A DNA stretch of 64,000 bases from positions 160,387 to 224,386 of the forward strand of contig PADB01000009.1 in assembly GCA_002700365.1 (NCBI GenBank), given 5' to 3'. The stretch is from Kordiimonas sp. GTDB taxonomy: Bacteria; Pseudomonadota; Alphaproteobacteria; Sphingomonadales; Emcibacteraceae. How positions within the stretch are numbered: position 1 is the first letter of the stretch; every line of letters starts with the position of its first letter. Positions 12,559 through 32,709 of this stretch are shown piece by piece. The notes under the pieces were generated by a model. It searched no databases, had not been told where the DNA came from, and saw nothing but the letters and a program-made list of their open reading frames with translations. Position numbers and translations under genes: made by a program.

Positions 12559-12646
12559 GGAGCGATGGCCGAGTGGTTTAAGGCGCACGCCTGGAAAGCG
12601 TGTTGGGCGCAAGCCCTCCGGGGTTCGAATCCCCGTCGCTCCGCCA
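12559..12646 (+). tRNA. tRNA-Ser (anticodon GGA)
   Basis: An 88-nt cloverleaf: acceptor GGAGCGA pairs with TCGCTCC, the anticodon stem is CACGC/GCGTG with loop CTGGAAA (anticodon GGA at 12593-12595), and the long class II variable arm, T-arm GGGGTTCGAATCCCC and encoded CCA are all present. Its 3' part serves as the attachment site of the neighbouring island. Confidence 0.97.
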
Positions 12647-12649
12647 TTA
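12609..12649 (+). repeat. attL-type direct repeat inside the tRNA-Ser 3' end
   Basis: A 41-bp segment running from the variable arm through CCA plus TTA. It is identical to 16046-16086; the match breaks on both sides (C versus G before, T versus C after). This is the classic footprint of tyrosine-recombinase integration into a tRNA gene. The tRNA stays intact on this side. Confidence 0.93.
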
Positions 12650-12674
12650 TCCCTGATACATTGATTGATTTCTA

Positions 12675-15600
12675 TTAGGCATCACTCTCAGTTGCCTTAG
12701 GGGTATCGTTATCCAAATCTTCACCGTATTCAAGTTTGCGCATAGCAATGTTCTGCTGCGTATGACGTGTAAAATCAGCAATTTGTAATTTTAGCGATCT
12801 AATCTCTTTTTCTGCAAATTGAACGACCTTAGTATTCCCATCTGCAAGCCAGCCCTCCAATTGCCTTACTTTCTCCTGACAAGCCTCAACACGACCAAAA
12901 TCGCCAGTCATAGTTCCTGTCTCATGAAAAATTAGCGAGACAGCGCGTTCTATATCATCTGTTACCTCATCTGAAGATAAAACAGCTCGCAGCAAAGGTA
13001 ACAAATCTTCCCGCCCATCATATCCTTTTAATGATGCAATAATAAAAGCTAAGTCACTCGTATCGCCACTTTCTATCATGCTAAAAAGTGCCGTCGATAA
13101 AGGCACCTCAAATGCAGGGTAAACCTTACTCAAAAAATGGGACCTATCCCAACTGCTAATAACGTCACTGTCCTCCTGCCAAAGTCTCACATGCGCAATC
13201 ACATCATCAGGGTAAGGCTGCAGTATTGTATGAACAGATTGGAAAGAAAAAGGAACTGCATCGTAGTCAGAAACGACAACTTCCTTAGCGTACTTCAGAC
13301 GCTCTCCGAACCAATCTAGTATCACATCATGGCGCTCTTCGCCTAGATCGGTCAAAATTTGTTCCGCTGGATAGTTAACCCGCTTCATACTGATCATAGA
13401 GTTAAGAAGGGTTTGCGCTTGCTCATCGGTCAAGTGACAAAAGAGTGATTCCTCTCCACCACTATACCCAATTCTATCAACCCAAATGGTAATGTCAGCT
13501 TCACGTAAAACCTTCAAGCAGGGGAAGAACACCTCATCGCGCCAGAGCGCTGGGTCATCAGAAAAGCGACGAACCGCTCCGTCGAGCATATATTCACAAG
13601 CGTCCCACTTACCTGACTTAATCACGTACTTTTTTGCTTTGTGAACAAGCTCTTTGCTAACACTCTCCGAGAAAGCAGCAATTTTGGCTATTTCGCTTAT
13701 AAACTGGCCTTCCTTAAGCCAATTAATCAATAAACTCTCCATCTCCGCCTGACGTTCTCCACCTAATAGTGCCCTCGCAATTGGCTGAATCGTCCATGCT
13801 GGAGTAGCTTCACGGTCTCGCAGTAATTCGATAGCAAATTCTGTATGACGTGCTGCAAGAACTGATAAAAACCGACTATATGGTGGAAAAAATGCTAAGT
13901 CAGAAGACTTTACACACGCCGCCAGCCCCAATCGTTCTTTCCATTGCGGCCAAGTATCCGACGTGACCGACTGAATAAGTTCGTCCTGTTTTGTATAACG
14001 GATTTTCTCATCGCGCTCGCGATCATATTCATACTTGCCCCACATATGCGGAAAAACAGATCTAAATCCGACGATAGTCTTAAAGATAGCAAACTCATCA
14101 TCAGCATTCAGTTTTTCACGCAAAGCCCCCATAGCATCACTCAGCTGTCCATGAGCAACCTTTACATCATCTTCAGTCTCAAATCTGTCCGGCAGAGTTT
14201 TATGACTACGCCAGTTTAACCATAAGATATACTCTGTCTCTTGACGAATACTTAGACTAGTACCATTGATAAAACTTGTTATGCGTTCGAATGCATATGC
14301 CAAGTCACCATATATCATCGCGGCAACCTCAGCACTCTCATCATTGAGACGCGGCAACTCCCCTGCCTCAAATAGAATGGAAATAGCACGTTGAAGCGCG
14401 TCTTCATCAGAAATCACGGTCTCCGCATGATTTGCAATCAGGTCAATCATTGCACGCCGCGCATCTTTTAGCTCTTCGCTATAACGAATGGCTCCCCTAT
14501 GAAATGTAACGGTTTCAGAACCTGCTGTAGTCCCGGTAATTTCAGATGAGAGAATTTCTCTGGCAATAGCCAATGCAAGCTGCGCATATGGGGCAATATC
14601 CTCTTCCTTTGTGAGGATATCAGCTAATTGAACCTGCATGTATGGACCAAGCTTTTCCCAAACTTGTAGTGTAGGGCATGCTAGGTGTTCAGCAATTTTA
14701 ACAAGTTGTTCTTTCGCCTCAGCAGTAGAGGTTTCAGCATAAAGGTAGCGAATAAACGCATACGTCTCGCCCGCATCAATATAACGATACTCATCAATAA
14801 TATCAGCAATAAGGCCAGTTACATCACTTGGTTTACAGCCGGAAAAGTTGCCAAAAGGTGTTTCATGTGGAATGACCTCGTCCACCTCAGCAGCAATCCA
14901 TACTTCTTTCAGGTTTGTACGAATTTCAGGAACTATCGTCTCAAGATCATCATAATAAGGAAGCACATCTTCCTTAAGCTTCCGCAGCGCTTCATGACGT
15001 TCATTATTATTTTTTGCGGTAAGTACTTTCCTCAGCACCCCCTGATCGAACAAACGTTTCCCCTCAGCAAGCCGCTCTACATCTGTTGCAATCTGTTGAA
15101 AAAGGTATCCTGCAGGCAGAAGGTGCTTCTGCATTACATCTCTAAGGCGCTCGCCAATGATGGCCGCCTCCTTCTCCTCAAAACCATCTAACTCAGGCTT
15201 TTTATAAATTGTATCATGTGCCATCTCAGCCCAAGCATGGTTAAGAGTCGTTTGAACCTGCACTTCACAATAAAGCCCCTCAAACTCACGATACTCACGT
15301 AGGCTCGTTCGGTCAGCTTTAAGCTTTACTACATAATTATTAGACTGGAAAAGCCGATCGACACTCTTTTCACCTGGATGCGGGTGGTGGAACTTTGACC
15401 GCTGCCAGTCAACATCAAATAAATCAGTAAGAAGTCCCGAGCTAGTAAAACGATTTACATCATTGTTCGTATAAAAAAGTATCCGACAACCTGCCAAATC
15501 CTTACGACACAACTCAATCTCGCTGCTATCAGATTGGCCTTTCTCTGCAAGCCTTCGCTTCAGCGAATCTATTGTCTTCGCTCGGCACTGAATCTGCTGT

Positions 15601-15710
15601 AGCCGATAACTGCCCGCAGCTTCCAGCTCAACCTCCAAAAGGTCCCGCACAATTTGCGCAAACTTTCCATATCGCCCGAAGCCATACTGCGTATATTCTT
15701 CAATATTCAT
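12675..15710 (-). CDS. Giant protein with N-terminal RelA/SpoT synthetase-type domain (island cargo)
   Basis: A 1011-residue protein. The N-terminal ~200 residues match the RelA/SpoT nucleotidyltransferase fold: R43-x-K45-x3-S49, D71-L-A-G-x-R76, a tyrosine (Y126) in a degenerate G-loop region, and E149-V-Q-V-Q-T followed by H-x-W-x-E-x2-x-H-D (158-166). The usual EIQIRT arginine is glutamine. There is no HD hydrolase domain, TGS or ACT domain. The remaining ~800 residues look mainly helical and repetitive, possibly HEAT-like, with a charged coiled-coil-like tail; no known domain is recognised. It could make (p)ppGpp or (p)ppApp, or pyrophosphorylate tRNA as toxSAS enzymes do. Island location suggests a toxin or phage-defence role. 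That is inference. Confidence 0.85.
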   Translation of the reverse strand: MNIEEYTQYGFGRYGKFAQIVRDLLEVELEAAGSYRLQQIQCRAKTIDSLKRRLAEKGQSDSSEIELCRKDLAGCRILFYTNNDVNRFTSSGLLTDLFDVDWQRSKFHHPHPGEKSVDRLFQSNNYVVKLKADRTSLREYREFEGLYCEVQVQTTLNHAWAEMAHDTIYKKPELDGFEEKEAAIIGERLRDVMQKHLLPAGYLFQQIATDVERLAEGKRLFDQGVLRKVLTAKNNNERHEALRKLKEDVLPYYDDLETIVPEIRTNLKEVWIAAEVDEVIPHETPFGNFSGCKPSDVTGLIADIIDEYRYIDAGETYAFIRYLYAETSTAEAKEQLVKIAEHLACPTLQVWEKLGPYMQVQLADILTKEEDIAPYAQLALAIAREILSSEITGTTAGSETVTFHRGAIRYSEELKDARRAMIDLIANHAETVISDEDALQRAISILFEAGELPRLNDESAEVAAMIYGDLAYAFERITSFINGTSLSIRQETEYILWLNWRSHKTLPDRFETEDDVKVAHGQLSDAMGALREKLNADDEFAIFKTIVGFRSVFPHMWGKYEYDRERDEKIRYTKQDELIQSVTSDTWPQWKERLGLAACVKSSDLAFFPPYSRFLSVLAARHTEFAIELLRDREATPAWTIQPIARALLGGERQAEMESLLINWLKEGQFISEIAKIAAFSESVSKELVHKAKKYVIKSGKWDACEYMLDGAVRRFSDDPALWRDEVFFPCLKVLREADITIWVDRIGYSGGEESLFCHLTDEQAQTLLNSMISMKRVNYPAEQILTDLGEERHDVILDWFGERLKYAKEVVVSDYDAVPFSFQSVHTILQPYPDDVIAHVRLWQEDSDVISSWDRSHFLSKVYPAFEVPLSTALFSMIESGDTSDLAFIIASLKGYDGREDLLPLLRAVLSSDEVTDDIERAVSLIFHETGTMTGDFGRVEACQEKVRQLEGWLADGNTKVVQFAEKEIRSLKLQIADFTRHTQQNIAMRKLEYGEDLDNDTPKATESDA

Positions 15711-17665: not shown

Positions 17666-18724
17666 ATGGGAATTTTCTCGGGAAAAATACGCGGTCATCA
17701 TGATTATGATCCCGCGCTGATTACAAAGTGGTTCATCCCTAAACAAAAGCCATATGGCAATGATTATAACGGCTTAGGCGAAACCGTAAAGCGTCGGCCT
17801 GGCCCGCTGATGCATGGACCCGATAATCACCCATGGAAAGGGATGATGGTATGGCTACTCATCAAGGGTAAAGTGCCCAACCCTCCCATTTGGTTCGTGG
17901 AAGTCCGCGGCATGATCCGTGACAAATTCGGCCATAAACCCATTGCCCCGGCAAAAGCCAAGGGCACCGCAGAAGAATTTAAAAAAGGCCTGGAAGAATT
18001 TGCGGAAGCCCACCCCTTCATCCACCAAATGGGGGTCACGCGGATGAAAGAAAGCTATATGTTTGCGGGCCAAAATGATCTGTCAAAAGAATATCCATGG
18101 GTTATTAGCGTTGCCCAACGCATGGAATATGATGTGCTGGTGAAAAACCTGGAAGGCGAATTTAAACGTTCCGGGGCGATTATTCACAAAGGCTATGAAG
18201 AAACCCATGTCGGGGCCGTGGACGTCGCCAACTGGATCCGCGCCAAAGGCTACAAAGCCAAAGGCTATGGCGGCACATCCATTATTAAAGGGGAATGGCA
18301 TACCATGATCCCTCCGGCAATTGACGGGGGGATTGGTCAGCTTGCTAAAAATGGCTCGATGATTAGTGACAAACTCGGCAGTGCCTTCCGCCTGTCAACA
18401 ACACTGACGGACATGCCGCTTATAACAGATGAGCCCCGTGAAATCGGTGTCGACGAATTCTGTATGTCCTGCAAAAAATGTCATACCGACTGCCCCCCTG
18501 GGGCCATTGGCAATGAAAAGCAAATGGTACGTGGCGTCGAAAAGTGGTACGTGGATTTTGATGTTTGCATGCCCTATATGCTGGAACAAAATGGCTGTGC
18601 CATTTGTGTCTCTACCTGCCCATGGAGCCGTCCCGGCGTTGCCCCCGGCCTATCGAAGAAGATGCTGAAAAAAATGGCCGCAGCTAATAAAAAAACAGAT
18701 GAGGGCCCCGCAACCACAGCCTAA
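17666..18724 (+). CDS. Reductive-dehalogenase-like Fe-S protein, copy 1
   Basis: A 352-residue cytosolic protein with RdhA-superfamily architecture. An N-terminal ~100-residue region (MGIFSGKIRG..., with GNDYNGLG) precedes a core with PWVISVAQRMEYD, the GYKAKGYGG segment, an EWH motif (residues 210-212) and GIGQLAKNGSMISDKLGSAF. Two [4Fe-4S] motifs follow: C266-x2-C269-x2-C272-x3-C276-P and C301-x9-C311-x2-C314-x3-C318-P. Known relatives are corrinoid-dependent reductive dehalogenases and, more distantly, QueG. There is no Tat signal, membrane segment or fused flavin/ferredoxin reductase domain, so it is neither a typical respiratory nor an NpRdhA-type enzyme. AGGTG precedes the ATG. It is the first of five tandem paralogues; halogenated-substrate reduction is inference. 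Confidence 0.85.
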   Translation: MGIFSGKIRGHHDYDPALITKWFIPKQKPYGNDYNGLGETVKRRPGPLMHGPDNHPWKGMMVWLLIKGKVPNPPIWFVEVRGMIRDKFGHKPIAPAKAKGTAEEFKKGLEEFAEAHPFIHQMGVTRMKESYMFAGQNDLSKEYPWVISVAQRMEYDVLVKNLEGEFKRSGAIIHKGYEETHVGAVDVANWIRAKGYKAKGYGGTSIIKGEWHTMIPPAIDGGIGQLAKNGSMISDKLGSAFRLSTTLTDMPLITDEPREIGVDEFCMSCKKCHTDCPPGAIGNEKQMVRGVEKWYVDFDVCMPYMLEQNGCAICVSTCPWSRPGVAPGLSKKMLKKMAAANKKTDEGPATTA

Positions 18725-18780
18725 AGTCTAAACATTTCTTGTCTTTTTATGACGTCTGGAAAGACATTACACTGAACACA

Positions 18781-18816
18781 AAAAGGTTCCTATCATAGCG
18801 GTGGGAACCTTTTTTC
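18781..18816 (+). terminator. Rho-independent terminator after copy 1
   Basis: AAAAGGTTCC (18781-18790) pairs with GGAACCTTTT (18804-18813), with a T-run after it. Copy 1 is therefore probably transcribed separately from copy 2. Confidence 0.9.
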
Positions 18817-18965
18817 GTGCCCGTCCTATAGACTCTCCACGCTATTCCTCTCTCACCCCCTGGTCACAACCTTTTACAGAAATCCACTTTTCTCTTGTTT
18901 TATACGATTGTATTAATATATTGTTTCTAAAGAATACATAAAATAGCGCCTTTAAGGATTAGAAA

Positions 18966-20009
18966 ATGGGAATTTTCTCGGGAAAATTACGCGGTCATCA
19001 TGATTATGATCCCGCGCTAATTACGAAGTGGTTCACCCCTAAACAAAAACCATTTGGCAATGATTACAATGGGTTAGGGGAAACCGTGAAACGCCGAGCC
19101 GGCCCCCTTATGCATGGCCCAGACACACATCCGTGGAATGGGATGATGGTGTGGCTGCTCATCAAGGGTAAAGTGCCTAATCCCCCTATTTGGTTTGTTG
19201 AACTACGCTGTATGCTGTTAGACAAATTCGGCCATAAGCCTGTTGCGCCAAAGAAAAAATCTGGCACTGCCGAAGAATTCAAAAAAGAATTAAACTCCTT
19301 CCTTGAAGATCACCCCTACATACATCAGACGGGTGTGACCCAGATGCGCGTGGACTACATGCATCAGGGGCAAAAGGACATGTCAAAGGAATATCCATGG
19401 ATCATCGTTCTGGCGCAACGCATGGAATACGACGCCCTCGCCCAGAATCTGGAAGGTAATTTTAAGATCGGCGGCCATACAGTGCATCGCGGCTATGAAG
19501 AAACCCATATCGCCGCCATTGATACCTCTAACTGGATCCGTAATCAGGGTTATAATGCTAAACCCTATGGTGGACTTACTGTCATTCCCGGCGAATGGCA
19601 TGTCATGATTCCGCCTGCTATAAAAGCCGGTATCGGTGAACTGGCAAAAAATGGCTCTATTATCAGTGACAAACTCGGCAGTGCCTTCCGCTTGGCCACA
19701 GTCCTCACAGACATGCCACTCGTCGCCGACAGCTTCCGCGAAGTCGGGGTCGATGAATTTTGCCTGTCTTGTAAAAAATGTCAGACAGACTGTCCCCCCG
19801 GTGCCATTTCCAACGAGAAACAGCTGGTCCGTGGTGTAGAACGCTGGTATGTGGATTTTGATAAATGCATCTCCGTAATGCTGGAAAACCACGGCTGTGC
19901 ATTATGTCTATCCACCTGCCCGTGGAGCCATCCGGGCGTCGCCCCAAGCTTATCGAAAAAGATGCTCGCCAAAATGGCCCGAAAATCAGACACCGCAGTC
20001 GCATCATAA
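18966..20009 (+). CDS. Reductive-dehalogenase-like Fe-S protein, copy 2
   Basis: A 347-residue paralogue collinear with copy 1 without gaps through residue ~335; 86 of the first 100 residues are identical. The two cluster motifs keep the same positions (C266, C269, C272, C276; C301, C311, C314, C318), as do EWH (210-212) and GIGELAKNGS. The first ~60 bases are almost identical to copy 1 at the DNA level even at silent sites, pointing to recent duplication or gene conversion. AAGGATTAG precedes the ATG. It lies exactly 1,300 bp after copy 1, behind its own AT-rich upstream region. Cytosolic, with no targeting signal. Confidence 0.85.
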   Translation: MGIFSGKLRGHHDYDPALITKWFTPKQKPFGNDYNGLGETVKRRAGPLMHGPDTHPWNGMMVWLLIKGKVPNPPIWFVELRCMLLDKFGHKPVAPKKKSGTAEEFKKELNSFLEDHPYIHQTGVTQMRVDYMHQGQKDMSKEYPWIIVLAQRMEYDALAQNLEGNFKIGGHTVHRGYEETHIAAIDTSNWIRNQGYNAKPYGGLTVIPGEWHVMIPPAIKAGIGELAKNGSIISDKLGSAFRLATVLTDMPLVADSFREVGVDEFCLSCKKCQTDCPPGAISNEKQLVRGVERWYVDFDKCISVMLENHGCALCLSTCPWSHPGVAPSLSKKMLAKMARKSDTAVAS

Positions 20010-20016
20010 ATCATAA

Positions 20017-20057
20017 CGCCGGACTGATTTCCTCTCTTCGCGATATTCAGTCCGGCG
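20017..20057 (+). terminator. Hairpin terminator after copy 2
   Basis: CGCCGGACTGA (20017-20027) and TCAGTCCGGCG (20047-20057) form an exact 11-bp stem with a 19-nt loop. Only a short T-rich stretch follows, so termination is likely but not certain. Confidence 0.65.
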
Positions 20058-20454
20058 ACCTTTATTGTCCCCAAGACCGAAAATACAGGTCCCGGTGCTG
20101 TTGGCTTTGATACAAATTGCCTTTCAAAATCCGCCACGTTATTTTTTTCAAATAATAAGATAAATAACAGCCCAACCCTTGAGGCAGTTGCGCTCAAACA
20201 TCTGCCATAGACTAATCTGCAACGAATATTACAGATTTTGAATATTGTTTGAGATGTATAATTCAGACCACGGCAGCTTGCCCCTTAACGCCCGCAATAA
20301 TAACGGCGGCAAAGGACGCACCAAAAGCATTTAACAACGATAATAAAAGAAATCACGGAAATTTCCTGCCCGCCATGGGCAATGGCGTTAAGGCTATTAA
20401 CTTGTAACCATAATAATCTTCTTCAAGAAGAGGCGACGTTCTCAGGAGTGTGAC
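20058..20454. other. Long gap between copies 2 and 3
   Basis: No gene is seen. A TATAAT element at 20257-20262 sits in GTATAATTC context, and the same 9-mer occurs upstream of copy 4. The best TTGAAT candidate for -35 (20238-20243) is too close, so the promoter is unproven. AGGAG precedes the copy 3 ATG. Confidence 0.4.
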
Positions 20455-21480
20455 ATGGGACTTTTTGTCGGCAAAGAATTACCTAATAATGAATATCGGC
20501 CGGGGGCCATAATGCGCTGGCTCTGGCCAAAGCACTTATCCGGTAATGAGTCCAACGGTTATGGTGTCAAAGAAAAGGTCCCGCCGACGCAGATGCTGGA
20601 TGGCCCCAACAAAAAATACTGGGTGGCACCGGGGCTGTGGTTTCTGGTGCGCTGTTATGTCGGCAACATGGAAACGCTAAAGTCTTTCTTCATTTACATG
20701 AAAAGGGAAAAGTCCGGTCATATTGATGTCGCCCCGCAAAAAATAGAAGAAAGTGGTGAAAAAACCGCAGCGGCCTTACGAGAATATGCAAAAGACCACC
20801 CCCAAATTGACATTCTCGGCATCACACACATGCGCGATGAATGGATGTTTGTCGGGCAGAAACCACCGCGCGGCAAATGGATCATCGTCATTGCCAAGGC
20901 AATGGATTATGAAAAAGTCGCCGCAAACCTAAAGGGCAATTTTAACCCTACCCTGACCCAGGTCATCGGTGGTTACGAACGCACACAGAAGGCGGCCGTT
21001 GATATTGCCAATTGGATTCGGGCGCGCGGTTATGATGCGAAGGGTTTTGGCGGCATGGCCCCGGTCAAGGATGAATGGCATCTCGTCATTCCTGCGGCCA
21101 TTGAATCCGGGATCGGTCAGTTGGCCAAAAATGGCTCTATTATCAGTGACAAACTGGGGAGCTGTTTTCGTCTGGCCTCTGTGATTACAGAAATTCCGCT
21201 CGCGGCTGATAGCCCCCGTGAAATTGGCGTGGATGAATTCTGTTATGCCTGTAAAAAATGCCAAACTGACTGCCCTGCCGGGGCCATCACAAATGAAAAA
21301 CATTTAGTCCGTGGCGTCATGAAATGGTACGTCAATTTTGACAAATGTATGCCTTATATGGCCGAACATAAGGCCTGTGCAATTTGTCTGTCTACCTGCC
21401 CCTGGAGCCGCCCTGGGGTCGCCCCAAGCTTATCGAAGAAAATGTTGGCCAAAATGGCCCGCAACAAGGATGACGCCTAA
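20455..21480 (+). CDS. Reductive-dehalogenase-like Fe-S protein, copy 3
   Basis: A 341-residue member of the same array. The N-terminal region differs from copies 1-2 (GKELPNNEYRPGAIMRWLWP), and copies 3 and 4 resemble each other more in this part. The core keeps KWIIVIAKAMDYE, RGYDAKGFGG, DEWH, and GIGQLAKNGSIISDKLGSCF. The cluster cysteines are C263, C266, C269, C273 and C298, C308, C311, C315, each set ending in CP. Copies 3-5 have a cysteine in GSCF where copies 1-2 have alanine. No signal peptide. An AGGAGTGTGAC ribosome-binding site precedes the ATG. Function is inferred as for copy 1. Confidence 0.84.
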   Translation: MGLFVGKELPNNEYRPGAIMRWLWPKHLSGNESNGYGVKEKVPPTQMLDGPNKKYWVAPGLWFLVRCYVGNMETLKSFFIYMKREKSGHIDVAPQKIEESGEKTAAALREYAKDHPQIDILGITHMRDEWMFVGQKPPRGKWIIVIAKAMDYEKVAANLKGNFNPTLTQVIGGYERTQKAAVDIANWIRARGYDAKGFGGMAPVKDEWHLVIPAAIESGIGQLAKNGSIISDKLGSCFRLASVITEIPLAADSPREIGVDEFCYACKKCQTDCPAGAITNEKHLVRGVMKWYVNFDKCMPYMAEHKACAICLSTCPWSRPGVAPSLSKKMLAKMARNKDDA

Positions 21481-21610
21481 GATATAGACAACGGAACGTA
21501 AAGTTTAAACAATTGAACAATAAACCGCATTATATGAAGAAGGCGGTACGTCCCTATTTCCGGTATAATTCGTCTAAACCATAACGAAGATATTGGACAT
21601 AGGTACAAAC

Positions 21611-22660
21611 ATGGGATTATTCGTCGGAGAACAATTAGGGCCCCACAATTATAAACCTGCGTGGATTACACGCTGGCTCTTCCCCAAAGGCTTAAGCGGT
21701 AATGGCCCATCAGGCAATGGCGTTGGTATCAAAGAAAAGTCACAACCCGTAAACTTCCTCACGGGGTCTGAACGGAAAGCGTGGCTCCCTTTAGGCCTGG
21801 TGTTCTTATTTCGCTGTTACCTTGGTAACTTTAATACGTTCCGTTCCTTTATCATTTACAATTGGCGTGAAAAATTCGGCCACGTCAAAATTGCTGACCA
21901 GAAAGCAAATAAAACAGCCGCAGAATTCAAAGCCGACCTTAAAGAATTCACCAAGGACCACCCGCAAATTGATATCCTGGGTGTTGCGCGCATGAATCCC
22001 GACTGGATGTTTCAAGGCATGCATGCCCCTTTTGGGGACTGGGTTGTTGTGATTGCCAAGGCTATGGACTACGACGAATTAGCGCATAACCTGAAAGGTG
22101 ATTTTACCCCCGCGCTGAAACAGGTCATTGGCGGTTATGAACGCACACAGTTTGCCGCCGTTGACGTTGCCAACTGGATGCGTAAACAAGGGTATATGGC
22201 AAAAGGTTTCGGTGGTCTTGCCCCGGTTAAAAACGAATGGCACGCGGTCATACCACCGGCCATTGAAGCCGGAATCGGACAACTGGCAAAAAACGGCTCT
22301 TTAATCAGCGACAAACTGGGAAGCTGCTTCCGTATTGCAACCGTCATGACCACCATGCCGCTGGTAGCCGACCAGCCCCGTGAACAGGGGGTCGATGAAT
22401 TTTGCGTCTCTTGCCGCAAATGTACGACGGACTGTCCACCCGGGGCCATCTATGATGAAAAGAAACTCGTGCGGGGTGTAGAGAAGTGGTACGTGGATTT
22501 CGATAAATGTATTCCCTTTATGTCTGAAAATAAGGCCTGCGCTATTTGCCTATCCACCTGTCCCTGGAGCCGCCCCGGCATCGCCCCCAGCCTATCACAA
22601 AAAATGCTCAAAAAATTGGCCCGCCGTGAAACCGCAACAGAGGCTGCAATGGCCGAATAA
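21611..22660 (+). CDS. Reductive-dehalogenase-like Fe-S protein, copy 4
   Basis: A 349-residue paralogue. I chose the ATG at 21611, which gives the family N-terminus MGLFVGEQ; a TTG at 21593 only adds six unconserved residues. An AGG lies upstream. The core has DWVVVIAKAMDYD, QGYMAKGFGG, NEWH and GIGQLAKNGSLISDKLGSCF. Cluster cysteines: C265, C268, C271, C275 and C300, C310, C313, C317. The gap from copy 3 is only 130 bp with no terminator, so copies 3 and 4 may share a transcript, although GTATAATTC just upstream could give copy 4 its own start. Confidence 0.84.
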   Translation: MGLFVGEQLGPHNYKPAWITRWLFPKGLSGNGPSGNGVGIKEKSQPVNFLTGSERKAWLPLGLVFLFRCYLGNFNTFRSFIIYNWREKFGHVKIADQKANKTAAEFKADLKEFTKDHPQIDILGVARMNPDWMFQGMHAPFGDWVVVIAKAMDYDELAHNLKGDFTPALKQVIGGYERTQFAAVDVANWMRKQGYMAKGFGGLAPVKNEWHAVIPPAIEAGIGQLAKNGSLISDKLGSCFRIATVMTTMPLVADQPREQGVDEFCVSCRKCTTDCPPGAIYDEKKLVRGVEKWYVDFDKCIPFMSENKACAICLSTCPWSRPGIAPSLSQKMLKKLARRETATEAAMAE

Positions 22661-22720
22661 GTAATTATCAGGACAATAACAATAAAATTCTAAGTCACTT
22701 CATCAGGACGACTTATCCTT

Positions 22721-22797
22721 AAAAGCAGTAGTCCCGGGCACACTGTCTGTATCTCACAGTGTTGCCTCCTCCTCCCCAGGGGCTGCTGCTTTTTTTT
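22721..22797 (+). terminator. Large structured terminator after copy 4
   Basis: AAAAGCAGTAGTCCC (22721-22735) pairs with GGGGCTGCTGCTTTT allowing G-U pairs. An inner CACTGT/ACAGTG hairpin lies between, and eight or more Ts follow. The stem is unusually long and branched for a simple terminator; a small processed RNA is an alternative reading. Confidence 0.8.
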
Positions 22798-22870
22798 ATT
22801 TTTACCCCAAAAAATATGAGCCTGCAAAATCACGCCACACCCGCTGCAGTTTTTTAGCTTTACCCTAACT

Positions 22871-22899
22871 TTGACTGCTATAACATATCATATGATAAA
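22871..22899 (+). promoter_or_regulatory. Sigma-70-like promoter with palindromic operator, copy 5
   Basis: TTGACT (22871-22876), a 17-bp spacer, then GATAAA (22894-22899). The 12-bp palindrome TATCATATGATA (22886-22897) overlaps the -10 box and shares its half-site with the inverted repeat before copy 1. Confidence 0.5.
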
Positions 22900-22943
22900 A
22901 AATAATATTTGCTCACCTATTCTGATATCATGGGAGGATCTAG

Positions 22944-23972
22944 ATGGGACTTTTTCGTGGACGCAAAATTGCCCAAAACGTATGGGAACCCGCCTTACTG
23001 ACACAATGGCTTATCCCAAAGAACGCCTCTGGCAATGATTACAATCGTGTCGGCTCTGCAAGACACGAACGCCCGTCTCCTCTATTTCATGGACCGGAAA
23101 AACACCCGTGGATGAGCATAATGCTCTATTTCAAGGTCCGGGAAAATTACGATAATCTCACTATTCTGATACAGCAATTTGTCCATGGCTGGCGGGACCG
23201 CTTCGGCCATGTCCGTCAAGCAGAAAAGCGCGTAGAAGCGACACCAGAAGAATTTACCAAACGCTTACGTGCTTTTGCTGCTGACCATCCCGAAGCCGAT
23301 ATTGTTGGCTTTACCCGCATGCGCCCCGAATGGATGTTCAAAGGGCAACTTCCTCCAAAGCACCCCTGGATTGTGGTCGTTGCGAAGGCCATGGATTACG
23401 ACACCCTGTCCTACAATTTAAAGGGAGATTTCCGCACTGCTGTCAAAGCAGTAATGGGAGGGTATGAACGCAACCATAAAGCCGTTGTCGACATTGCCAA
23501 CTGGATCCTGAAACAGGGCTACAGTGCTAAAGGCTATGGCGGGTTGACGATGATCAAAGATGAATGGCATGTCATGATCCCCCCGGCCATCGAATGCGGA
23601 ATTGGCCAGCTCGCCAAAAATGGCTCCATGATTAACGACCAGCTCGGCAGCTGTTTTCGTTTGGCAACCGTCCTGACCGATATGCCCTTTGTCGCCGACC
23701 AGCCCCGCGAAATTGGCGTTGATGAATTTTGCACATCCTGCAAAAAATGTCAGACCGATTGCCCACCCGGGGCCATTTCCAATGAAAAGCAGCTGGTCCG
23801 CGGGGATGTGAAATGGTACGTAGATTTTGATAAATGCATGCCATTCCTCGCCGAACATAAGGCCTGTGGCCTCTGCCTGTCCACCTGTCCATGGAGCCGC
23901 CCGGGCATCGCCCCCAACCTATCGCAAAAAATGCTTAAGAAAATGGCCCGTCAGGCCACCCCGGCTCACTAA
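22944..23972 (+). CDS. Reductive-dehalogenase-like Fe-S protein, copy 5
   Basis: A 342-residue paralogue that combines a copy-1-like GNDYN element with a more divergent N-terminal half (NYDNLTILIQQFVHGWRDRF). The core shows PWIVVVAKAMDYD, QGYSAKGYGG, DEWH and GIGQLAKNGSMINDQLGSCF, and the serine and lysine of the ISDK motif are changed to NDQ. Cluster cysteines are C263, C266, C269, C273 and C298, C308, C311, C315. GGGAGG precedes the ATG. It has its own promoter and lies behind a strong terminator. Its end converges on the Kef-type antiporter gene. Confidence 0.84.
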   Translation: MGLFRGRKIAQNVWEPALLTQWLIPKNASGNDYNRVGSARHERPSPLFHGPEKHPWMSIMLYFKVRENYDNLTILIQQFVHGWRDRFGHVRQAEKRVEATPEEFTKRLRAFAADHPEADIVGFTRMRPEWMFKGQLPPKHPWIVVVAKAMDYDTLSYNLKGDFRTAVKAVMGGYERNHKAVVDIANWILKQGYSAKGYGGLTMIKDEWHVMIPPAIECGIGQLAKNGSMINDQLGSCFRLATVLTDMPFVADQPREIGVDEFCTSCKKCQTDCPPGAISNEKQLVRGDVKWYVDFDKCMPFLAEHKACGLCLSTCPWSRPGIAPNLSQKMLKKMARQATPAH

Positions 23973-25866: not shown

Positions 25867-26640
25867 CTAGGCTTTTGTGGAAAAATTCACCCGTCCGATA
25901 TTTTCAGCATCTAAACGAACATTCAGGCCGCGGGACAATGCCGCCGCTGCTGTCGCCCCACCTGCCAGAATAATCCAGCCTTCTTCCAGAACCATTCCGG
26001 CTTCGGCCGCCATACGGGCGGCACCGACCAATGCCCTTGTCGGGTGGCCCAGAATTGAGGCAGTTGAACCGATTTCCACGGGACGGCCATCAAATTCCAT
26101 CACCATACCGAGGTTTGAAAAATCCTGGTCAGGACGATTCCAGTTACCAATTACAAAGCTTGAAGAAGAACTGTTATCAGCAACCACATCGGGCAAATTA
26201 AATTTGAAGTTTTCATAGCGACTGTCGATGATTTCCATCGCCGGGGCAATGGCTTCAACCGCTTCCATAGCTTCAAATGGTGTCATGTTACCGTAAAGTG
26301 GACGCTTTAGCAGAAAGGCCAGTTCAGGCTCAACACGTGGATGAACATAATCAGCGATATCAATTTCGCCGCCGTCTTCAACCAGCATCTTGTCTGTCAG
26401 GCGACCCCAGATCAGATCATCCAGGCCCATCTGGACCATTTTGGCACGGGAGGTAAATCCCATTTTGACCCCTACCTGCATTTCACCACGGCCATAACGG
26501 CGCCCCATGGATAATGCCTGCACTTCGTAAGCTTCTTCCAAGGTCAGTTCATAAGTTTCAGACAGCTGTGCAATGGCATTGCCGTCTTTAGCCGCGGTAT
26601 CTACGATTTCCGCGATTTTCTGAAGTTCATTCACGTTCAT
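25867..26640 (-). CDS. dmpH: 4-oxalocrotonate decarboxylase (DmpH/NahK-like)
   Basis: A 257-residue member of the hydratase/decarboxylase family. It would decarboxylate 2-oxo-3-hexenedioate to 2-hydroxypenta-2,4-dienoate, normally in a complex with the hydratase. KMGFTSRAKMVQMGLDDLIW with WGRLTDKM is typical of the decarboxylase branch, and VEPELAFLL carries metal-binding glutamates. Last gene of the four-gene operon; its ATG overlaps the stop of the aldolase gene by one base. The match to the decarboxylase rather than a second hydratase rests on sequence flavour and on gene order E-F-G-H. Confidence 0.85.
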   Translation of the reverse strand: MNVNELQKIAEIVDTAAKDGNAIAQLSETYELTLEEAYEVQALSMGRRYGRGEMQVGVKMGFTSRAKMVQMGLDDLIWGRLTDKMLVEDGGEIDIADYVHPRVEPELAFLLKRPLYGNMTPFEAMEAVEAIAPAMEIIDSRYENFKFNLPDVVADNSSSSSFVIGNWNRPDQDFSNLGMVMEFDGRPVEIGSTASILGHPTRALVGAARMAAEAGMVLEEGWIILAGGATAAAALSRGLNVRLDAENIGRVNFSTKA

Positions 26641-27659
26641 TAGGCTTCTTCTCTCTCTTTAAGAATGTCCAAAGCCACGTCAACAATCATATCTTCCTGG
26701 CCGCCAACCATTTTACGTGCCCCCAGCTCAACCAGGATATCACGTACGTCCAGACCATATGTTTCCGCAGCAGTTTCTGAGTGACGCAGGAATGAAGAAT
26801 ACACACCGGCATAACCCAGCGACAATGTCTCACGGTCAACACGTACTGGACGATCTTGCAGTGGACGAACCAGCTCATCAGCGGCATCCATCAGCTTGAA
26901 CAGGTCACAACCATGTTCCCAACCCATGCGGTCGGCTGCTGCAATAAACACTTCCAGAGGTGCATTACCCGCACCCGCGCCCATACCTGTCAGTGAGGCA
27001 TCAACGCGCACGGCACCGTTTTGAACAGCGGCGATAGAGTTCGCAACACCCAGTGACAGGTTGTGGTGTGCATGCACACCGCGTTCCGTCGCAGGATCCA
27101 GCACGTCGTTAAACGCCTGCATACGGGCTGCGATATCGTCCATGTTCTGCGCCCCGCCACTGTCCACAACATAAACAGTTGTCGCACCGTAGCTTTCCAT
27201 CATCTTAGCTTGTTCAGCCAGATGGGCAGGCTCGATCATGTGGGACATCATCAGGAAGCCAACAGTATCCATACCCATTTCACGGGCAATTTCGATATGC
27301 TGCTTGGAAATATCCGCTTCTGTACAATGCGTAGCAATACGTACAGACCGCACACCCAGATCATAGGCACGCTTCAGATCTTCTTTGGTACCAATACCTG
27401 GCAGCAACAGTGTTGCCAGCTTGGCTTTGTCCAGTACGTCAGCAACAGCTTCCAGCCATTCCCAGTCAGTGTGGGCACCGAAGCCATAGTTGAAGCTGGA
27501 ACCGGCCAGACCGTCACCATGGGCAACCTCAATGGCATCTACACCGGCATCTTCCAACGCCTTGGCAATATTGCGGACATGGTCAATGCTATACTGGTGA
27601 CGGATGGCATGCATCCCATCGCGCAGGGTAACGTCCTGAATGTAAAGTTTCTTATCCAT
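26640..27659 (-). CDS. dmpG: 4-hydroxy-2-oxovalerate aldolase
   Basis: A 339-residue metal-dependent aldolase of the DmpG/BphI family that splits 4-hydroxy-2-oxopentanoate to pyruvate and acetaldehyde. The TIM-barrel entry motif [16 protein letters not shown] carries the catalytic histidine and metal aspartate, [13 protein letters not shown] gives the two metal-binding histidines, and the C-terminal communication domain holds [10 protein letters not shown]. It forms a channelled complex with the dehydrogenase encoded just upstream. AAGGAG precedes the ATG. Confidence 0.96.
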
Positions 27660-27670
27660 CTCAATTCTCC

Positions 27671-28609
27671 TTACGCTGCGGCGCCAAATTTAAGTTCGGC
27701 AATTTTCTCACCAGTACCCAGCGCTGCTGAAGTCATGATGTCCAGATTACCAGCATAAGCAGGCAGGTAATGGGCAGCACCTTCAACTTCCAGGAATACG
27801 GACGTCTTCAGGCCCTCAAACTCACCATACCCCGGAATGGTCAGCGGGTTATTGGAACCAAAACGCTCGAACTGAACTTTTTGTTTCAGACGGTAGCCAG
27901 GAACGTAGCTCTGTACGTCTTTCACCATTTGCTCAATGCTGGCTTCAACTTCTTTTTCATCAGCCATATCAGACAAAGTGAAAACAGTGTCCCGCATCAA
28001 CAAAGGCGGTTCAGCAGGGTTCAAAATAATAATGGCTTTACCTTTACCGGCACCACCAACTTTTTCGATGGCGCGTGATGTGGTTTCGGTAAATTCATCG
28101 ATGTTCGCACGGGTACCCGGGCCCGCAGACTTTGATGAAATACTGGCCACAATCTCACCGTAATGAACTTTGGCAACGCGGCTCACGGCAGCAACGATCG
28201 GAATAGTCGCCTGACCACCACATGTCACCATGTTCACGTTTGGCTCGTCCAGGTGCGCTTCCATGTTCACAACTGGCACCGTGTACGGGCCAATCGCCGC
28301 AGGTGTCAGGTCAACAATAACCTTGCCTGCCTTCTGGCAAACGTCAGAATGGATTTTGTGGGCATATGCGGATGTGGCATCAAACACAACTTTGATGTCG
28401 TCCCATACGTCCATTTTTTGCAGGCCTTCAATGCCTTCCGCGGTGGTTGCAACACCCATACGTTCCGCCCGGGCAAGACCATCTGATTTTGGATCAACCC
28501 CAACCATGGCACCCATTTCCAGAAGCTCACTGGTCCGCAGGACTTTAATCATAAGGTCTGTACCAATATTACCGGAACCGATAATGGCAACTTTTACTTT
28601 ATTGCTCAT
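27671..28609 (-). CDS. dmpF: Acetaldehyde dehydrogenase (acylating)
   Basis: A 312-residue NAD-dependent enzyme converting aldolase-derived acetaldehyde to acetyl-CoA. The Rossmann motif [19 protein letters not shown] is at the N-terminus and the catalytic cysteine is in [13 protein letters not shown] (about residue 131). Normal length for DmpF/BphJ. It is preceded by a GGGGGA ribosome-binding site, 11 bp upstream of the aldolase gene with which it forms the channelling complex. Confidence 0.96.
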
Positions 28610-28626: not shown

Positions 28627-29418
28627 CTATACAAAATTAGCGCGTACGGAACCCAGTCCGTTAATACGCAGCTCATAAACACCCGGCCCATTAACCGGCA
28701 CCATCGGCCCCAGCGCGCCAGACAAAACAGTATCGCCAGCCATCAGCGGACGGCCTGCCTTTACCATTGTCTGTGCAAGCCATAAGGTCGCGTTCAGCGG
28801 ATTCCCCAGACAGGCTGCACCAGCCCCTGTCGCCACGGGATCACCGGCATGTTCGATCACCATCCCACACAGACGCGGATCAAACTCACCCAATGCTTTT
28901 GGCTCACTTCCCAACACATAAAGACCGGAGGAGGCATTATCAGCAATAGTATTCATAATCGTGATTTTCCAGTCAGCAACCCGACTGTCCACAATTTCAA
29001 TTGCGGCCACCGCATAATCAATGGCGCTCATGACATCCGTGATGGTCAGATTATCGCTGTCCAGGTCGTCACCCAATACAAAGGCAATTTCGCCTTCGAT
29101 TTTAGGCTGCAACAGACGCGACAATGGAATTTCTGCACCATCAGCATAAGCCATATCCGCATACAGCATGCCGAAGTCCGGCTGATCCACACCCAACTGG
29201 GCCTGAACGGCCTTCGCGGTCAAACCGATCTTGCGGCCCACCAGACGACGGCCCTGTTCCAGCCAGTAAGCTGTATTGGCGTCTTGTACGGCATAACCAA
29301 CATCAAGATCATCAGCAGGCAAAAAACTGCTTAATGGCGGGCAAGGCTCACCCTTCTCTGCTGCCACTCGAAGCATCTCTGCGCCGCGTTGAATGTCCGC
29401 GTCACTTACTTCCGACAT
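28627..29418 (-). CDS. dmpE: 2-oxopent-4-enoate (2-hydroxypentadienoate) hydratase
   Basis: A 263-residue MhpD/DmpE-family hydratase adding water to 2-hydroxypenta-2,4-dienoate to give 4-hydroxy-2-oxopentanoate. The conserved GRKIGLTAKAVQAQLGVDQPDFG block and the metal-binding PKIEGEIAFVLG segment are seen. First gene of the E-F-G-H operon, with GAGGAG before the ATG. The upper pathway (ring-cleavage dioxygenase, semialdehyde dehydrogenase, tautomerase) and a regulator are absent from this window. Confidence 0.92.
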   Translation of the reverse strand: MSEVSDADIQRGAEMLRVAAEKGEPCPPLSSFLPADDLDVGYAVQDANTAYWLEQGRRLVGRKIGLTAKAVQAQLGVDQPDFGMLYADMAYADGAEIPLSRLLQPKIEGEIAFVLGDDLDSDNLTITDVMSAIDYAVAAIEIVDSRVADWKITIMNTIADNASSGLYVLGSEPKALGEFDPRLCGMVIEHAGDPVATGAGAACLGNPLNATLWLAQTMVKAGRPLMAGDTVLSGALGPMVPVNGPGVYELRINGLGSVRANFV

Positions 29419-29858
29419 CTAATTCTCCTCTACACATTCTTTTCTGATATCGACATTACATCGTGCATAAGTCAATCCCATGATAATACAGCCACAAAGC
29501 CACGTCCCCCTAGGATCACCGTGCAATATAACGGATTCGAAACAGCAAGAAAGTACAAAAACGCAAAAAGGTCTATCAATAAAGAAAAATGGTCCCTCGC
29601 AACATGGCATGCAACTACAATTTACATGATGAGACAATAACAAATAGGCTTCCTCACAATAATTCTACATGCAAAGTCCTATTATATTTTTATCTTCGAT
29701 AAAGGCTTTATTAGGCCTATCGGTGTTAAAGTAGCAAAAGACAGACGTTATGACTTGACCAACATTTTCTATTTATATGAGGCCTGAACTACTGCTTGTC
29801 TGCCTTACTCCGACACGCTAGGCTTATTGTAATATTTTCAGCCAGAGGTATGATCTTC
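29419..29858. other. Intergenic region between divergent genes
   Basis: About 440 bp, A/T-rich, separating the meta-cleavage operon from the TPR gene. Short frames on both strands (83 and 74 codons) overlap each other and lack coding character. It must contain both promoters, but I see no unambiguous -35/-10 pair or operator. Confidence 0.4.
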
Positions 29859-32687
29859 ATGAAGAAAAACATGATCTTTTCTTACAGTATCGCTGTGATG
29901 ATGACGGCTTTAACAGTGACATCATCATGGGCGAATGAGGATAAGCTGGCGCAATCTGCCGCCGCCTATGAAGAAGCCCTCGACAGTCTCAATGATAATG
30001 CCCTTGATGAGGCAACCATTCATCTGCGCAATGCAATCAAATATAATCCCGATAGTTTGCCGGCCTATATTAAATTGGCTGAAACATATCTTCAGTTGGA
30101 TCAACCGGCCGCCGCCGAATGGACCTTGGGCCGACTGCGGTCCAAAAACGTCGATATTTCTCTTTACGCGGAACTTATGGCCACAGCCTATTTTCGTCAA
30201 AGCCGATATGAAGAACTATTAGAAACGCTGCCCGCGGTCGGATTGGCAATTGACCTTCAAAGTAAGATTACCTTATGGCGCGGGAAGGCCTATCTAGGCT
30301 TGCGTAATTATGCCAGTGCCGAACACGCCTTCGAAAGCGCGTTGGCCCTGACCCCCACGTTGGCCGAAGCCCACGTACAACTTTCTCGCCTTCGTCTTCT
30401 GACCGGGCAGACAGATGCTGCCGAACAGGCCCTCAAAACAGCCCAAAGCTACAATATGACCGGGGCGGAATATTTATATTTATGGGGGGAACTTTATCGT
30501 CAACGCCACCAATTCGATCAGGCGATTGCCTTTTATGACAAAACCCTGCAGGCAGATCCAGATCACCTTATGGCCCTTGTTACCAAGGCTGGCCTTCTCC
30601 TGGATACAGGCAGTATTGGACAGGCGGAAAGCCTTATTGCTGCCCTACGCAAAAAATACCCCTCTAATCTGCACGTCGCCTATTTGCACACTTTAATGCT
30701 ATCCAATAAAGGGGATCGGCGCGGGGCGGCGGCGGCTTTGGAAAAGACGGGAAAAATCCTTGATAGTGAAACCCTCACGGATTATCAGGACGACCCCCGC
30801 ACGTTAAATATTGCCGGCGCGGTCTACTATTTCTTGAACCGTCATCAGGACGCCATTAATGCCCTGGACCTGTATCTCAACATTGCTCCCCACAACAATG
30901 AAGTCCGCCGCATTCTCGCATCGGCGCAGCTCAAACACGGCATGCCCCGCGATGCTCTTAAAACATTGCGGGATGGACTGTATTACGAAGACAAAAATTT
31001 ACCGCTCATGGAGCTTCTGGGCCGCACATTTATGGAACTTGGCCGTTATGAAGAAGCCGCAGAAACCTATGAGTTCCTCTCCAATACTGTCCCCGATAAC
31101 GAAAGCTTGCAGCGGGAACTGGCACTGGCAAAATTTTCCACTGGCGTCCGGGGTGAAGCCATCCGCAAACTGGAAGAACTCTCCCACGGGAAGGAAGAAG
31201 GCTTAGATAGCGCATTGGTGTTGGCCAACCTCTACATCCGCAATCAGGAATTCTCAAAGGCCATAGAATACACAGCAACCCTAAAAGAAACATATCCAAA
31301 GGTTCCTCTGCTTTACAACATTTCCGCCAGCGCCCATTTGGCACTGGGGCAAGATGAAGCCGCCCGCGCCGATTATCTAAAGGCCATTGCGTTGGCCCCG
31401 CGTTACACGCCCGCCATGTTTAATCTGGCCAGCCTTGACCATAAACAGGGCCGGCTGGCCGCGGCCAAACAGTTACTCAATCGTGTCGTTGATATTGATA
31501 GCAACAACCATATGGCGATGATTCAATTATCGCGCATTGCACAGGCTGAACATGATCTCAACAATGCCGTGCGCTGGCTGGAACGGGCCCTGACGGATTA
31601 CGACTCCATTGATGAAAGCTTACGTCTGGCCAATCTGCACCTAAAGACGAACAACCTCACCGCAGCGACCACCGTCATTGATGCCCTCACCGCCGCCCAT
31701 GAGGATAACCTGCGCGTACTGGAAGCTTCCGCCTTGATTAAAACCATGCATGGCGATGTCAACCGCGCCCGAAGTTTATACCGCCAGATCAGCAGTCGCG
31801 CGGTAAATTCCCCTGACACGCTCTATTGGCTACATCGCATTGCCCGGCGGCAGAAGGATATCCGTGATATTGACGCCGCCCGTGACACCTTGCAGCTGGC
31901 ATTGGAATATGATGCCGATAACTTACGTACCCACACTATTTTAGCGGAACTGGATATTGTCAGCCACCGCTACCAGGATGCGCTGGCAGGGGCTGAAAAC
32001 CTTATTACTCAGGCCCCTGACCACCCTGTGGGATACAGCATGGCGTCTGATATCATGATGATACAAAACAACCATCAACAGGCCCTCACTTACCTGCAAC
32101 GTGGTCTGCAACAACGCCCAGATGCGGCAGCACTCGCCCTGCGTATCTACAAAATCGTGGAAAAAAAGGATGGCCTGGAACCAGCGTTAAAGTATCTGGC
32201 CGATTGGGAAACACAACATAGAACCCAAAACACTTCTGTTCTTCAGGCCCTGGGCGCAGCATACACCCGCAATGGTGAATATAATAAGGCGGCCAAGATT
32301 AATGGGTTTTTATTAACCAATGACCCTCAAAACCCTGTTTTGCTTAATAACCTTGCCGCACTTTATATGCAGACCGGTGATCCTCGTGCAGAAGAATATG
32401 CACAAATGGCTTATACCCGTGCACCTGATAACCCCGCTGTGATGGATACGTTAGGCTGGATTCTTATTCGCAAGGGCGTCATGGATAAAGGCCTGTCCCT
32501 CCTGCGAAATGCCCATAGTCGCGCCCCTGCGGACTTGGAAATAGCCTATCACACTGCCACAGCACTGATTCAAACGAATAACAGAGCCGAAGCCATCGAA
32601 ACGCTTCAACGCAGCTTGGCCCTCACACAGCAATTAGATGCCGATAATGAAGCCTCTCGCCTCTTAACCAGCCTGCTTGACAAATAG
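29859..32687 (+). CDS. PrsT-like TPR-repeat protein (PEP-CTERM system type), secreted
   Basis: A 942-residue protein from the chosen ATG at 29859, which gives a clean signal peptide (MKKNMIFSYSIAVMM..., cleavage near SWA-NED); upstream starts would bury it. The rest is a long array of tetratricopeptide repeats from about residue 30 to the end. Length and layout match the PEP-CTERM-system TPR protein PrsT, which is usually a lipoprotein; here no lipobox cysteine is present. It is probably periplasmic and helps polysaccharide assembly or sorting of exosortase substrates. A PEP-CTERM protein gene lies 1.8 kb downstream, which supports the reading. Confidence 0.75.
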   Translation: MKKNMIFSYSIAVMMTALTVTSSWANEDKLAQSAAAYEEALDSLNDNALDEATIHLRNAIKYNPDSLPAYIKLAETYLQLDQPAAAEWTLGRLRSKNVDISLYAELMATAYFRQSRYEELLETLPAVGLAIDLQSKITLWRGKAYLGLRNYASAEHAFESALALTPTLAEAHVQLSRLRLLTGQTDAAEQALKTAQSYNMTGAEYLYLWGELYRQRHQFDQAIAFYDKTLQADPDHLMALVTKAGLLLDTGSIGQAESLIAALRKKYPSNLHVAYLHTLMLSNKGDRRGAAAALEKTGKILDSETLTDYQDDPRTLNIAGAVYYFLNRHQDAINALDLYLNIAPHNNEVRRILASAQLKHGMPRDALKTLRDGLYYEDKNLPLMELLGRTFMELGRYEEAAETYEFLSNTVPDNESLQRELALAKFSTGVRGEAIRKLEELSHGKEEGLDSALVLANLYIRNQEFSKAIEYTATLKETYPKVPLLYNISASAHLALGQDEAARADYLKAIALAPRYTPAMFNLASLDHKQGRLAAAKQLLNRVVDIDSNNHMAMIQLSRIAQAEHDLNNAVRWLERALTDYDSIDESLRLANLHLKTNNLTAATTVIDALTAAHEDNLRVLEASALIKTMHGDVNRARSLYRQISSRAVNSPDTLYWLHRIARRQKDIRDIDAARDTLQLALEYDADNLRTHTILAELDIVSHRYQDALAGAENLITQAPDHPVGYSMASDIMMIQNNHQQALTYLQRGLQQRPDAAALALRIYKIVEKKDGLEPALKYLADWETQHRTQNTSVLQALGAAYTRNGEYNKAAKINGFLLTNDPQNPVLLNNLAALYMQTGDPRAEEYAQMAYTRAPDNPAVMDTLGWILIRKGVMDKGLSLLRNAHSRAPADLEIAYHTATALIQTNNRAEAIETLQRSLALTQQLDADNEASRLLTSLLDK

Positions 32688-32709
32688 GCTCTTATAAAAG
32701 GTCGTCGGG

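Follow-up and report, generated by a model that had tools for sequence, protein, structure and literature searches.

Short RdhA-like proteins in thirteen copies in a Kordiimonas genome: candidate cytosolic reductive dehalogenases

The stretch of DNA analysed here, hereafter the window, comprises 64,000 nucleotides from Kordiimonas sp. (assembly GCA_002700365.1, contig PADB01000009.1, positions 160,387 to 224,386) and carries an array of five short genes at 17666-23972, arranged head to tail on the plus strand. These genes are best explained as encoding cytosolic, corrinoid-dependent reductive dehalogenases with two [4Fe-4S] clusters, which act on halogenated aromatics and have diversified in substrate; we put the probability of this reading at about 0.68. 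It is based on profile, structural and residue-level similarity to the reductive dehalogenase RdhA, and on the location of this array and of a second one in the same genome beside genes of aromatic catabolism. A first-pass annotation, made from the sequence alone, had described five tandem RdhA-like genes with a shared architecture. That description stands for the window, and the five copies are now seen to be part of a thirteen-copy genomic family.

Family assignment and predicted fold

The five genes are intact open reading frames (ORFs) of 341-352 codons each, whose products align over their full length with that of copy 1 at 51-74% identity. The motifs C-x2-C-x2-C-x3-CP (at 263-266) and C-x9-C-x2-C-x3-CP (at 298-301) are present in all five, together with a GY/GG segment and the block GIG[QE]LAKNG. 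With the NCBIfam models, the five proteins score 102-109 bits for reductive dehalogenase (TIGR02486) and 38-47 bits for QueG (TIGR00276), the cut-off of which, 200, is not reached by any of them. All 78 members of the family alignment match both models, and the better best E-value is that of the dehalogenase. A profile search of the PDB gives the same order, with PceA at E 7e-26, NpRdhA at 2e-20 and QueG at 2.5e-7.

The structure prediction proposed in the first-pass annotation agrees with this assignment. An AlphaFold2 model of copy 5, built from 78 sequences, has a mean predicted local distance difference test (pLDDT) score of 94.2 and a predicted template modelling (pTM) score of 0.92. It matches NpRdhA with a VIA Z of 27.4 (290 aligned residues, within 39-336) and PceA with a VIA Z of 25-26.6; over the RdhA structures as a whole, Z is 25-27 with 272-294 residues aligned. 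The match to QueG, by comparison, reaches Z 15 over 198 residues and is confined to residues 100-322. Collectively, the profile, PDB and AlphaFold comparisons clearly favour RdhA-like over QueG-like proteins for the window five, as had been claimed.

It is therefore very improbable that the array encodes tRNA epoxyqueuosine reductases of the QueG type or direct derivatives of them. Low-scoring QueG matches in the Fe-S half would fit such a view, as would a tree test that does not reject grouping with QueG (see below). Against it, RdhA is far ahead of QueG in both structure and profile scores, and the QueG_DUF1730 domain (PF08331), which is present in E. coli QueG, is found in none of the window five at E up to 1. 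Moreover, a true QueG is encoded elsewhere in the genome (contig C4, 454 bits), and thirteen divergent copies would make no sense for a single tRNA step. The case for a separation from QueG is thus made by structure, by individual residues, by Pfam content and by the true enzyme elsewhere in the genome.

The Pfam family PF13486 matches none of the 78 clade members. It also misses the proven reductive dehalogenase BhbA, while PceA-like, Dehalococcoides and 412-residue proteins pass; a PF13486 search of the array's own genome gave no match, and its controls were likewise unmatched. Because BhbA and the controls fail too, the PF13486 misses are not evidence against RdhA membership.

Phylogenetic position

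In a tree of 80 domains, 55 short proteins form one clade with a Shimodaira-Hasegawa-like approximate likelihood ratio (SH-aLRT) support of 98, which bears out the suggestion of a separate subfamily. Its members have about 320-350 residues, are free of twin-arginine translocation (Tat) signals, membrane anchors and fused domains, and come from Proteobacteria and Acidobacteria. On the free tree this short clade stands apart from QueG, from respiratory RdhA, from NpRdhA/BhbA and from another group of short proteins. The tree comparison that had been proposed as a check is thus decided only in part, since a grouping of the short clade with QueG (p 0.479) or with NpRdhA/BhbA (p 0.122) is not rejected by approximately unbiased (AU) tests. 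All 13 genome copies fall into one lineage-specific clade (98), within which the window five (85), five copies on contig C11 (83) and a pair (98) form subclades.

Conserved residues and proposed mechanism

Among the 78 relatives, the first [4Fe-4S] motif is found by regular expression in 76 and the second in all, and the eight cysteines are invariant in the alignment. Tyr174 and Arg239, numbered after copy 5, are likewise invariant in the 78 relatives and in all 13 genome copies. In a phmmer alignment, in which chain numbering reproduces the published NpRdhA numbers, Tyr174 and Arg239 are aligned with Y426 and K488, the catalytic dyad of NpRdhA (PMC7565698); structure entry 6zy0 (K488Q) differs exactly at the column of K488. 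Residue 305 of PceA is aligned with Arg239. An N-terminal motif, SGN-x2-NG-x-G, is near-invariant among the relatives, is specific to the family and falls outside the region aligned to NpRdhA. The E-W-H segment, first described as invariant, is so within the window five and is private to them: other copies in the genome have E-L-H, E-F-H, E-W-F or N-I-L, and the segment is missing from most relatives.

These features could be combined into the following mechanism. Each gene would encode a soluble cytosolic reductive dehalogenase of the short clade, holding a base-off cobamide in its nitroreductase-like core. Electrons would reach cobalt by way of the two [4Fe-4S] clusters near the C-terminus, and Tyr174, activated by Arg239, would give the proton, converting a carbon-halogen into a carbon-hydrogen bond. 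The thirteen paralogues might differ in the halogenated aromatics on which they act, with halophenols and halo-hydroxybenzoates as possible examples, and the dehalogenated ring would pass to the 4-hydroxybenzoate, phenol and catechol-cleavage enzymes whose genes adjoin the arrays. Tat-less catabolic relatives from other clades do dehalogenate bromo- and iodophenols (PMC13101508, PMC10463259).

A non-catalytic B12 protein, such as a cobalamin chaperone, reductive activase or sensor, is a highly doubtful alternative. The model weakly resembles MMACHC/CblD (Z 5-7), as does the whole nitroreductase-like superfamily, whereas the full two-cluster machinery, the invariant catalytic dyad and the thirteen divergent copies all speak for enzymes.

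Absence of export, anchor and fused domains

The proteins had been described as Tat-less, anchor-less and unfused, and all three points were borne out. No Tat-like RR motif lies within the first 45 residues of the window five or of any of the genome's 13 copies, and a scan across 96 entries gave one chance-like match. Between or beside the window five there is no rdhB-like ORF; the intergenic plus-strand ORFs, of 46 and 52 residues, are not membrane-like by eye. None of the five carries a fused domain, and 341-352 residues leave no room for an inactive N-terminal half or a reductase.

These data also bear on a respiratory origin, in which dehalogenases without Tat signal or anchor would conserve energy at the membrane through a hydrophobic segment at 58-80. 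Several copies do have a moderately hydrophobic segment at about 58-80 (Kyte-Doolittle up to 1.9), and the copy number is reminiscent of what is generally known of organohalide respirers. In the AlphaFold2 model, however, residues 57-87 form two helices inside the NpRdhA-aligned fold, and besides the missing Tat signal and RdhB, the genome encodes two haem-copper oxidases, which, judged from sequence, indicate aerobic respiration. A respiratory role is accordingly considered most unlikely.

A thirteen-copy family in one genome

The 2.4-Mb genome holds 13 full-length copies, distributed as the window array (5), a second array on contig C11 (5), a pair (2) and a single gene (1). At a strict cut-off, a survey of the alphaproteobacterial class found a match in 26 of 385 genomes, and 11 other genomes that were counted in full have 1-4 copies each. 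Synonymous sites between the copies are saturated while amino-acid divergence is modest. The copies are therefore old rather than an assembly artefact, and they are held by purifying selection; because of the saturation, ratios of nonsynonymous to synonymous substitution (dN/dS) are unusable.

The divergence among paralogues suggested earlier is evident and is concentrated in the front half, the electron-transfer half being conserved. Mean identity among the 13 copies is 29% at residues 61-100, 44% at 101-160 and 73-75% at 211-322. For most pairs within the window array, dN falls from about 0.6 in the front half to 0.2 in the Fe-S half. A similar gradient is found in relatives. Front-half divergence of this kind is consistent with substrate diversification, which it may reflect but does not prove.

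The genome has further RdhA-type genes, among them one for a 751-residue NpRdhA-like protein on contig C5. Two more RdhA-like proteins on C4 (L030:6951-8057, 368 residues; L030:9580-11835, 751 residues) form a long separate branch in the tree; by eye, the larger has an NAD(P)-binding reductase-like C-terminus, and the pair is interleaved with TetR-like regulators. Also on C4 (L030:14399-15094) is a truncated clade member of 231 residues without the Fe-S half, which adjoins a VanA-like Rieske oxygenase; intact counterparts of this neighbourhood occur at loci L100 and L127. On C3 (L028:2819-3574), a 251-residue protein with a Cys-rich CP motif adjoins the two-copy locus and an HsaA-like flavin monooxygenase. 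It has no Pfam or NCBIfam match and scores about 1 bit with the clade's model.

Array organisation and neighbouring genes

Since a generic promoter and terminator scan of the array gave nothing above chance, hairpin folding was used to delimit transcription units (Table 1). The array likely forms four of them, because hairpins follow copies 1, 2 and 4, at three of the four junctions, and the fold at the remaining junction is weaker. The earlier view that each copy has its own upstream region is supported at these three junctions; it does not extend to copies 3 and 4, which are 127 bp apart with a weaker fold between them (z -2.8).

Table 1. Positions of the array genes, their hairpins and the adjoining catabolic genes in the window
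Feature	Position	Strand	Remarks
Short RdhA-like protein, copy 1	17666..18724	+	352 aa; TIGR02486 102.6 bits vs QueG 38.4
Terminator-like hairpin and T-tract, 3' of copy 1	18770..18825	+	fold z -4.36
Short RdhA-like protein, copy 2	18966..20009	+	347 aa; 74% identity with copy 1
Strong hairpin without T-tract, 3' of copy 2	20010..20070	+	fold z -4.81
Short RdhA-like protein, copy 3	20455..21480	+	341 aa
Short RdhA-like protein, copy 4	21608..22660	+	350 aa; ATG start; in-frame TTG alternative at 21593
Terminator-like hairpin and T-tract, 3' of copy 4	22715..22805	+	fold z -7.73
Short RdhA-like protein, copy 5	22944..23972	+	342 aa; AlphaFold2-modelled, pLDDT 94
DmpH/DmpE-like decarboxylase/hydratase, lower meta-cleavage pathway	25867..26640	-	TIGR03218 220 bits, under cut-off
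4-hydroxy-2-oxovalerate aldolase DmpG	26640..27659	-	TIGR03217 580 bits, above cut-off
Acetaldehyde dehydrogenase (acetylating) DmpF	27671..28609	-	TIGR03215 475 bits, above cut-off
FAA-hydrolase-fold enzyme, probable hydratase/decarboxylase of the same pathway	28627..29418	-	PF01557

The window array adjoins lower meta-cleavage genes (DmpH-like, DmpG and DmpF). Next to these, at 29796-34233, are genes for two proteins rich in tetratricopeptide repeats, the second with a methyltransferase domain. At 12559-15710, a tRNA-Ser gene is followed on the opposite strand by one for a 1011-residue protein that contains a RelA/SpoT domain; this may be a gene of stress response or defence at a tRNA site.

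The second five-gene array, on C11, sits in an island of aromatic catabolism. Above their cut-offs are PobA, 2-hydroxymuconic semialdehyde dehydrogenase, catechol 2,3-dioxygenase and PcaF; a chlorocatechol-1,2-dioxygenase-like enzyme scores below. CoA-transferase genes, LigB, two FAD ring hydroxylases, a XylR/MobR-type regulator, a TonB receptor and an iron-type alcohol dehydrogenase, which could be a maleylacetate reductase, are also encoded there.

Near this array lies the gene for a 320-residue flavin/2Fe-2S reductase of the phthalate-dioxygenase type (L027:4644-5606, C11:34643-35605), the single one of its type in the genome. The claim that the genes have no reductase partner is thus correct within the window and does not extend to the genome. 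Over nearly its whole length, the enzyme shares 35-38% identity with the reductase domain fused to BhbA and to the RdhA proteins of Nitratireductor OM-1 and Ruegeria. Its gene is 37 bp from that for catechol 2,3-dioxygenase. A separate reductase would supply the electrons from NAD(P)H, and this protein is the best candidate for that role. For the cobamide, uptake or salvage rather than synthesis is plausible, as suggested by a match to a BtuB-like receptor (307 bits, below cut-off) and by a CobI match of no more than 37.6 bits.

Relatives in other genomes

With a broader alignment as query, 491 relatives were found in the genome collection; an earlier scan of genome contigs with the window five alone as query had confirmed none. 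The neighbourhood counts below refer to the best 80 of the 491, which come from Alpha-, Gamma- and Betaproteobacteria, Acidobacteria and a few metagenome-assembled genomes named Chloroflexi or Acidimicrobiia. Isolates with a member include Luminiphilus syltensis NOR5-1B, Edaphobacter lichenicola and Granulicella aggregans. A major facilitator superfamily (MFS) transporter is adjacent in 16 of the 80 loci, mostly acidobacterial, and often overlaps the RdhA-like gene; carboxymuconolactone-decarboxylase-family (CMD) genes also lie near 16. In the acidobacterial loci L109, L111, L117, L147, L151 and L157, among others, an arrangement of an RdhA-like gene with an overlapping MFS gene and CMD genes nearby recurs. 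An AMP-forming CoA ligase is encoded within 4.5 kb in nine loci, sometimes with an acyl-CoA dehydrogenase or thioesterase, and overlaps or abuts the RdhA-like gene in L090, L097, L137 and L141, hinting at CoA-activated substrates in those lineages. Substrate classes thus probably vary across lineages, as far as gene neighbourhoods can tell.

Viral contigs held no relatives, and phage and plasmid records held only distant RdhA or QueG. In the literature, no description of the clade or of its host was found, most subscription journals being outside the searched set. The screen of 36 reductive dehalogenases cited in PMC13101508 might contain a clade member.

Dehalogenation or another reaction

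The first-pass annotation had left room for a different reaction. On this point, the Tyr-Arg pair argues for ordinary dehalogenation, whereas the missing arginine of the NpRdhA pocket and the CoA-ligase neighbours point the other way. Several observations weigh against the dehalogenase reading. The TIGR02486 scores are under the curated cut-off of 160, though this is the best-matching family there. Arg552 of NpRdhA, the ligand of the substrate hydroxyl, is aligned with Leu302, and Ser422 is not kept (Val170 in copy 5), so that the pocket differs from that of NpRdhA. Because CoA-ligase or CMD and MFS genes are neighbours elsewhere, the substrates may not be free halophenols. The reductase tree shows no specific grouping of the C11 enzyme with the fused dehalogenase reductases, and this enzyme could instead serve the VanA-like Rieske oxygenase or reactivate the adjacent catechol dioxygenase; the neighbourhood of the nearest stand-alone reductase in a relative (L195) is uninformative. 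To these can be added the weak BtuB and CobI basis of cobamide salvage, and no assayed clade member was found in the literature.

These observations lead to an alternative that keeps the cofactors and the fold and changes the natural reaction. Examples would be the reductive cleavage of C-O bonds, as in dehydroxylation or the opening of ethers, and the reduction of an epoxide, an enone or an aryl- or acyl-CoA. Such chemistry is considered unlikely, though well short of negligible. On the tree, the clade falls outside every RdhA group tested, and its own N-terminal motif lies outside the NpRdhA-aligned part; together with the altered pocket and the nine CoA-ligase loci, this would suit another reaction, and QueG is a B12 reductase with the same fold that does not dehalogenate (PMC7585037). 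On the other side, the Tyr and Lys/Arg pair that donates the proton in dehalogenases does not vary, and the aromatic islands in which the arrays lie also encode dihydroxy-aromatic dioxygenases, a setting in which removal of a halogen is an expected early step. Reductive dehalogenation by the array proteins is therefore preferred.

Implications

The clade is widespread, unstudied as far as found, and probably under-recorded, since it is skipped in catalogues that rely on PF13486 searches (this family was used for the network in PMC13101508); the copy number in the present genome is unusual. We may tentatively go further, with less confidence than for the dehalogenase reading itself. The clade could represent widespread, minimal cytosolic B12 reductive enzymes that PF13486 misses, and one small, aerobic-type marine genome with thirteen substrate-specialised paralogues could be the equivalent, in oxygen-compatible form, of the multi-rdhA genomes found in organohalide respirers, with some branches acting on CoA-activated or new substrates. 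If the dehalogenase reading is right, anchor-less, unfused reductive dehalogenation would be far commoner in aerobic-type bacteria and soil Acidobacteria than has been catalogued. It would also suggest that the marine bacteria concerned draw on natural halogenated aromatics as an important source of carbon. At about 345 residues, such a soluble protein would be smaller than any of the characterised dehalogenases in the present comparison, and the thirteen natural paralogues, constant in the electron-transfer half and variable in the front half, would provide a ready series for substrate specificity.

Comparison with known systems

The cytosolic catabolic enzymes of the NpRdhA (Nitratireductor pacificus) and BhbA/JtRdhA type share with the array proteins the fold (Z 27), two C-terminal [4Fe-4S] motifs, the Tyr and Lys/Arg position and the lack of a Tat signal, and their hosts likewise have aerobic-respiration genes and aromatic catabolism. 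The reductase that is fused in the BhbA type has a stand-alone homologue in the array genome. However, the array proteins, of about 345 residues compared to about 700-1070, have neither the N-terminal inactive half nor the fused reductase. They also differ from NpRdhA in having Arg for Lys488, in not keeping Arg552 and Ser422, in forming a separate supported clade and in their own N-terminal motif.

Respiratory enzymes such as PceA (Sulfurospirillum, Desulfitobacterium) are similar in fold (Z 25-27), cluster motifs and the Tyr-Arg pair. The array proteins are about 150 residues shorter than respiratory RdhA, have no Tat signal and no RdhB, are unmatched by PF13486 and are encoded in an aerobic-type genome. 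QueG shares the core of the class-III cobalamin fold and the Fe-S half; the array proteins have no DUF1730 match and align with QueG at Z 15 over 100-322 only, in a genome with a true QueG elsewhere.

Similar in organisation are Ros_A3X954 and Pararhodobacter A0A2T7UTL8, which are unfused and Tat-less proteins of marine Alphaproteobacteria with two [4Fe-4S] motifs, and enzymes of this type dehalogenate 2,6-dibromophenol or triiodophenol (PMC13101508). Ros_A3X954 matches PF13486, and its reported spacing from the end of the first motif to the start of the second is 43, as in the clade of 397-437-residue proteins, compared to 34 in the array. From this reported spacing, we infer that Ros_A3X954 belongs with the clade of 397-437-residue proteins rather than with the short clade of the array.

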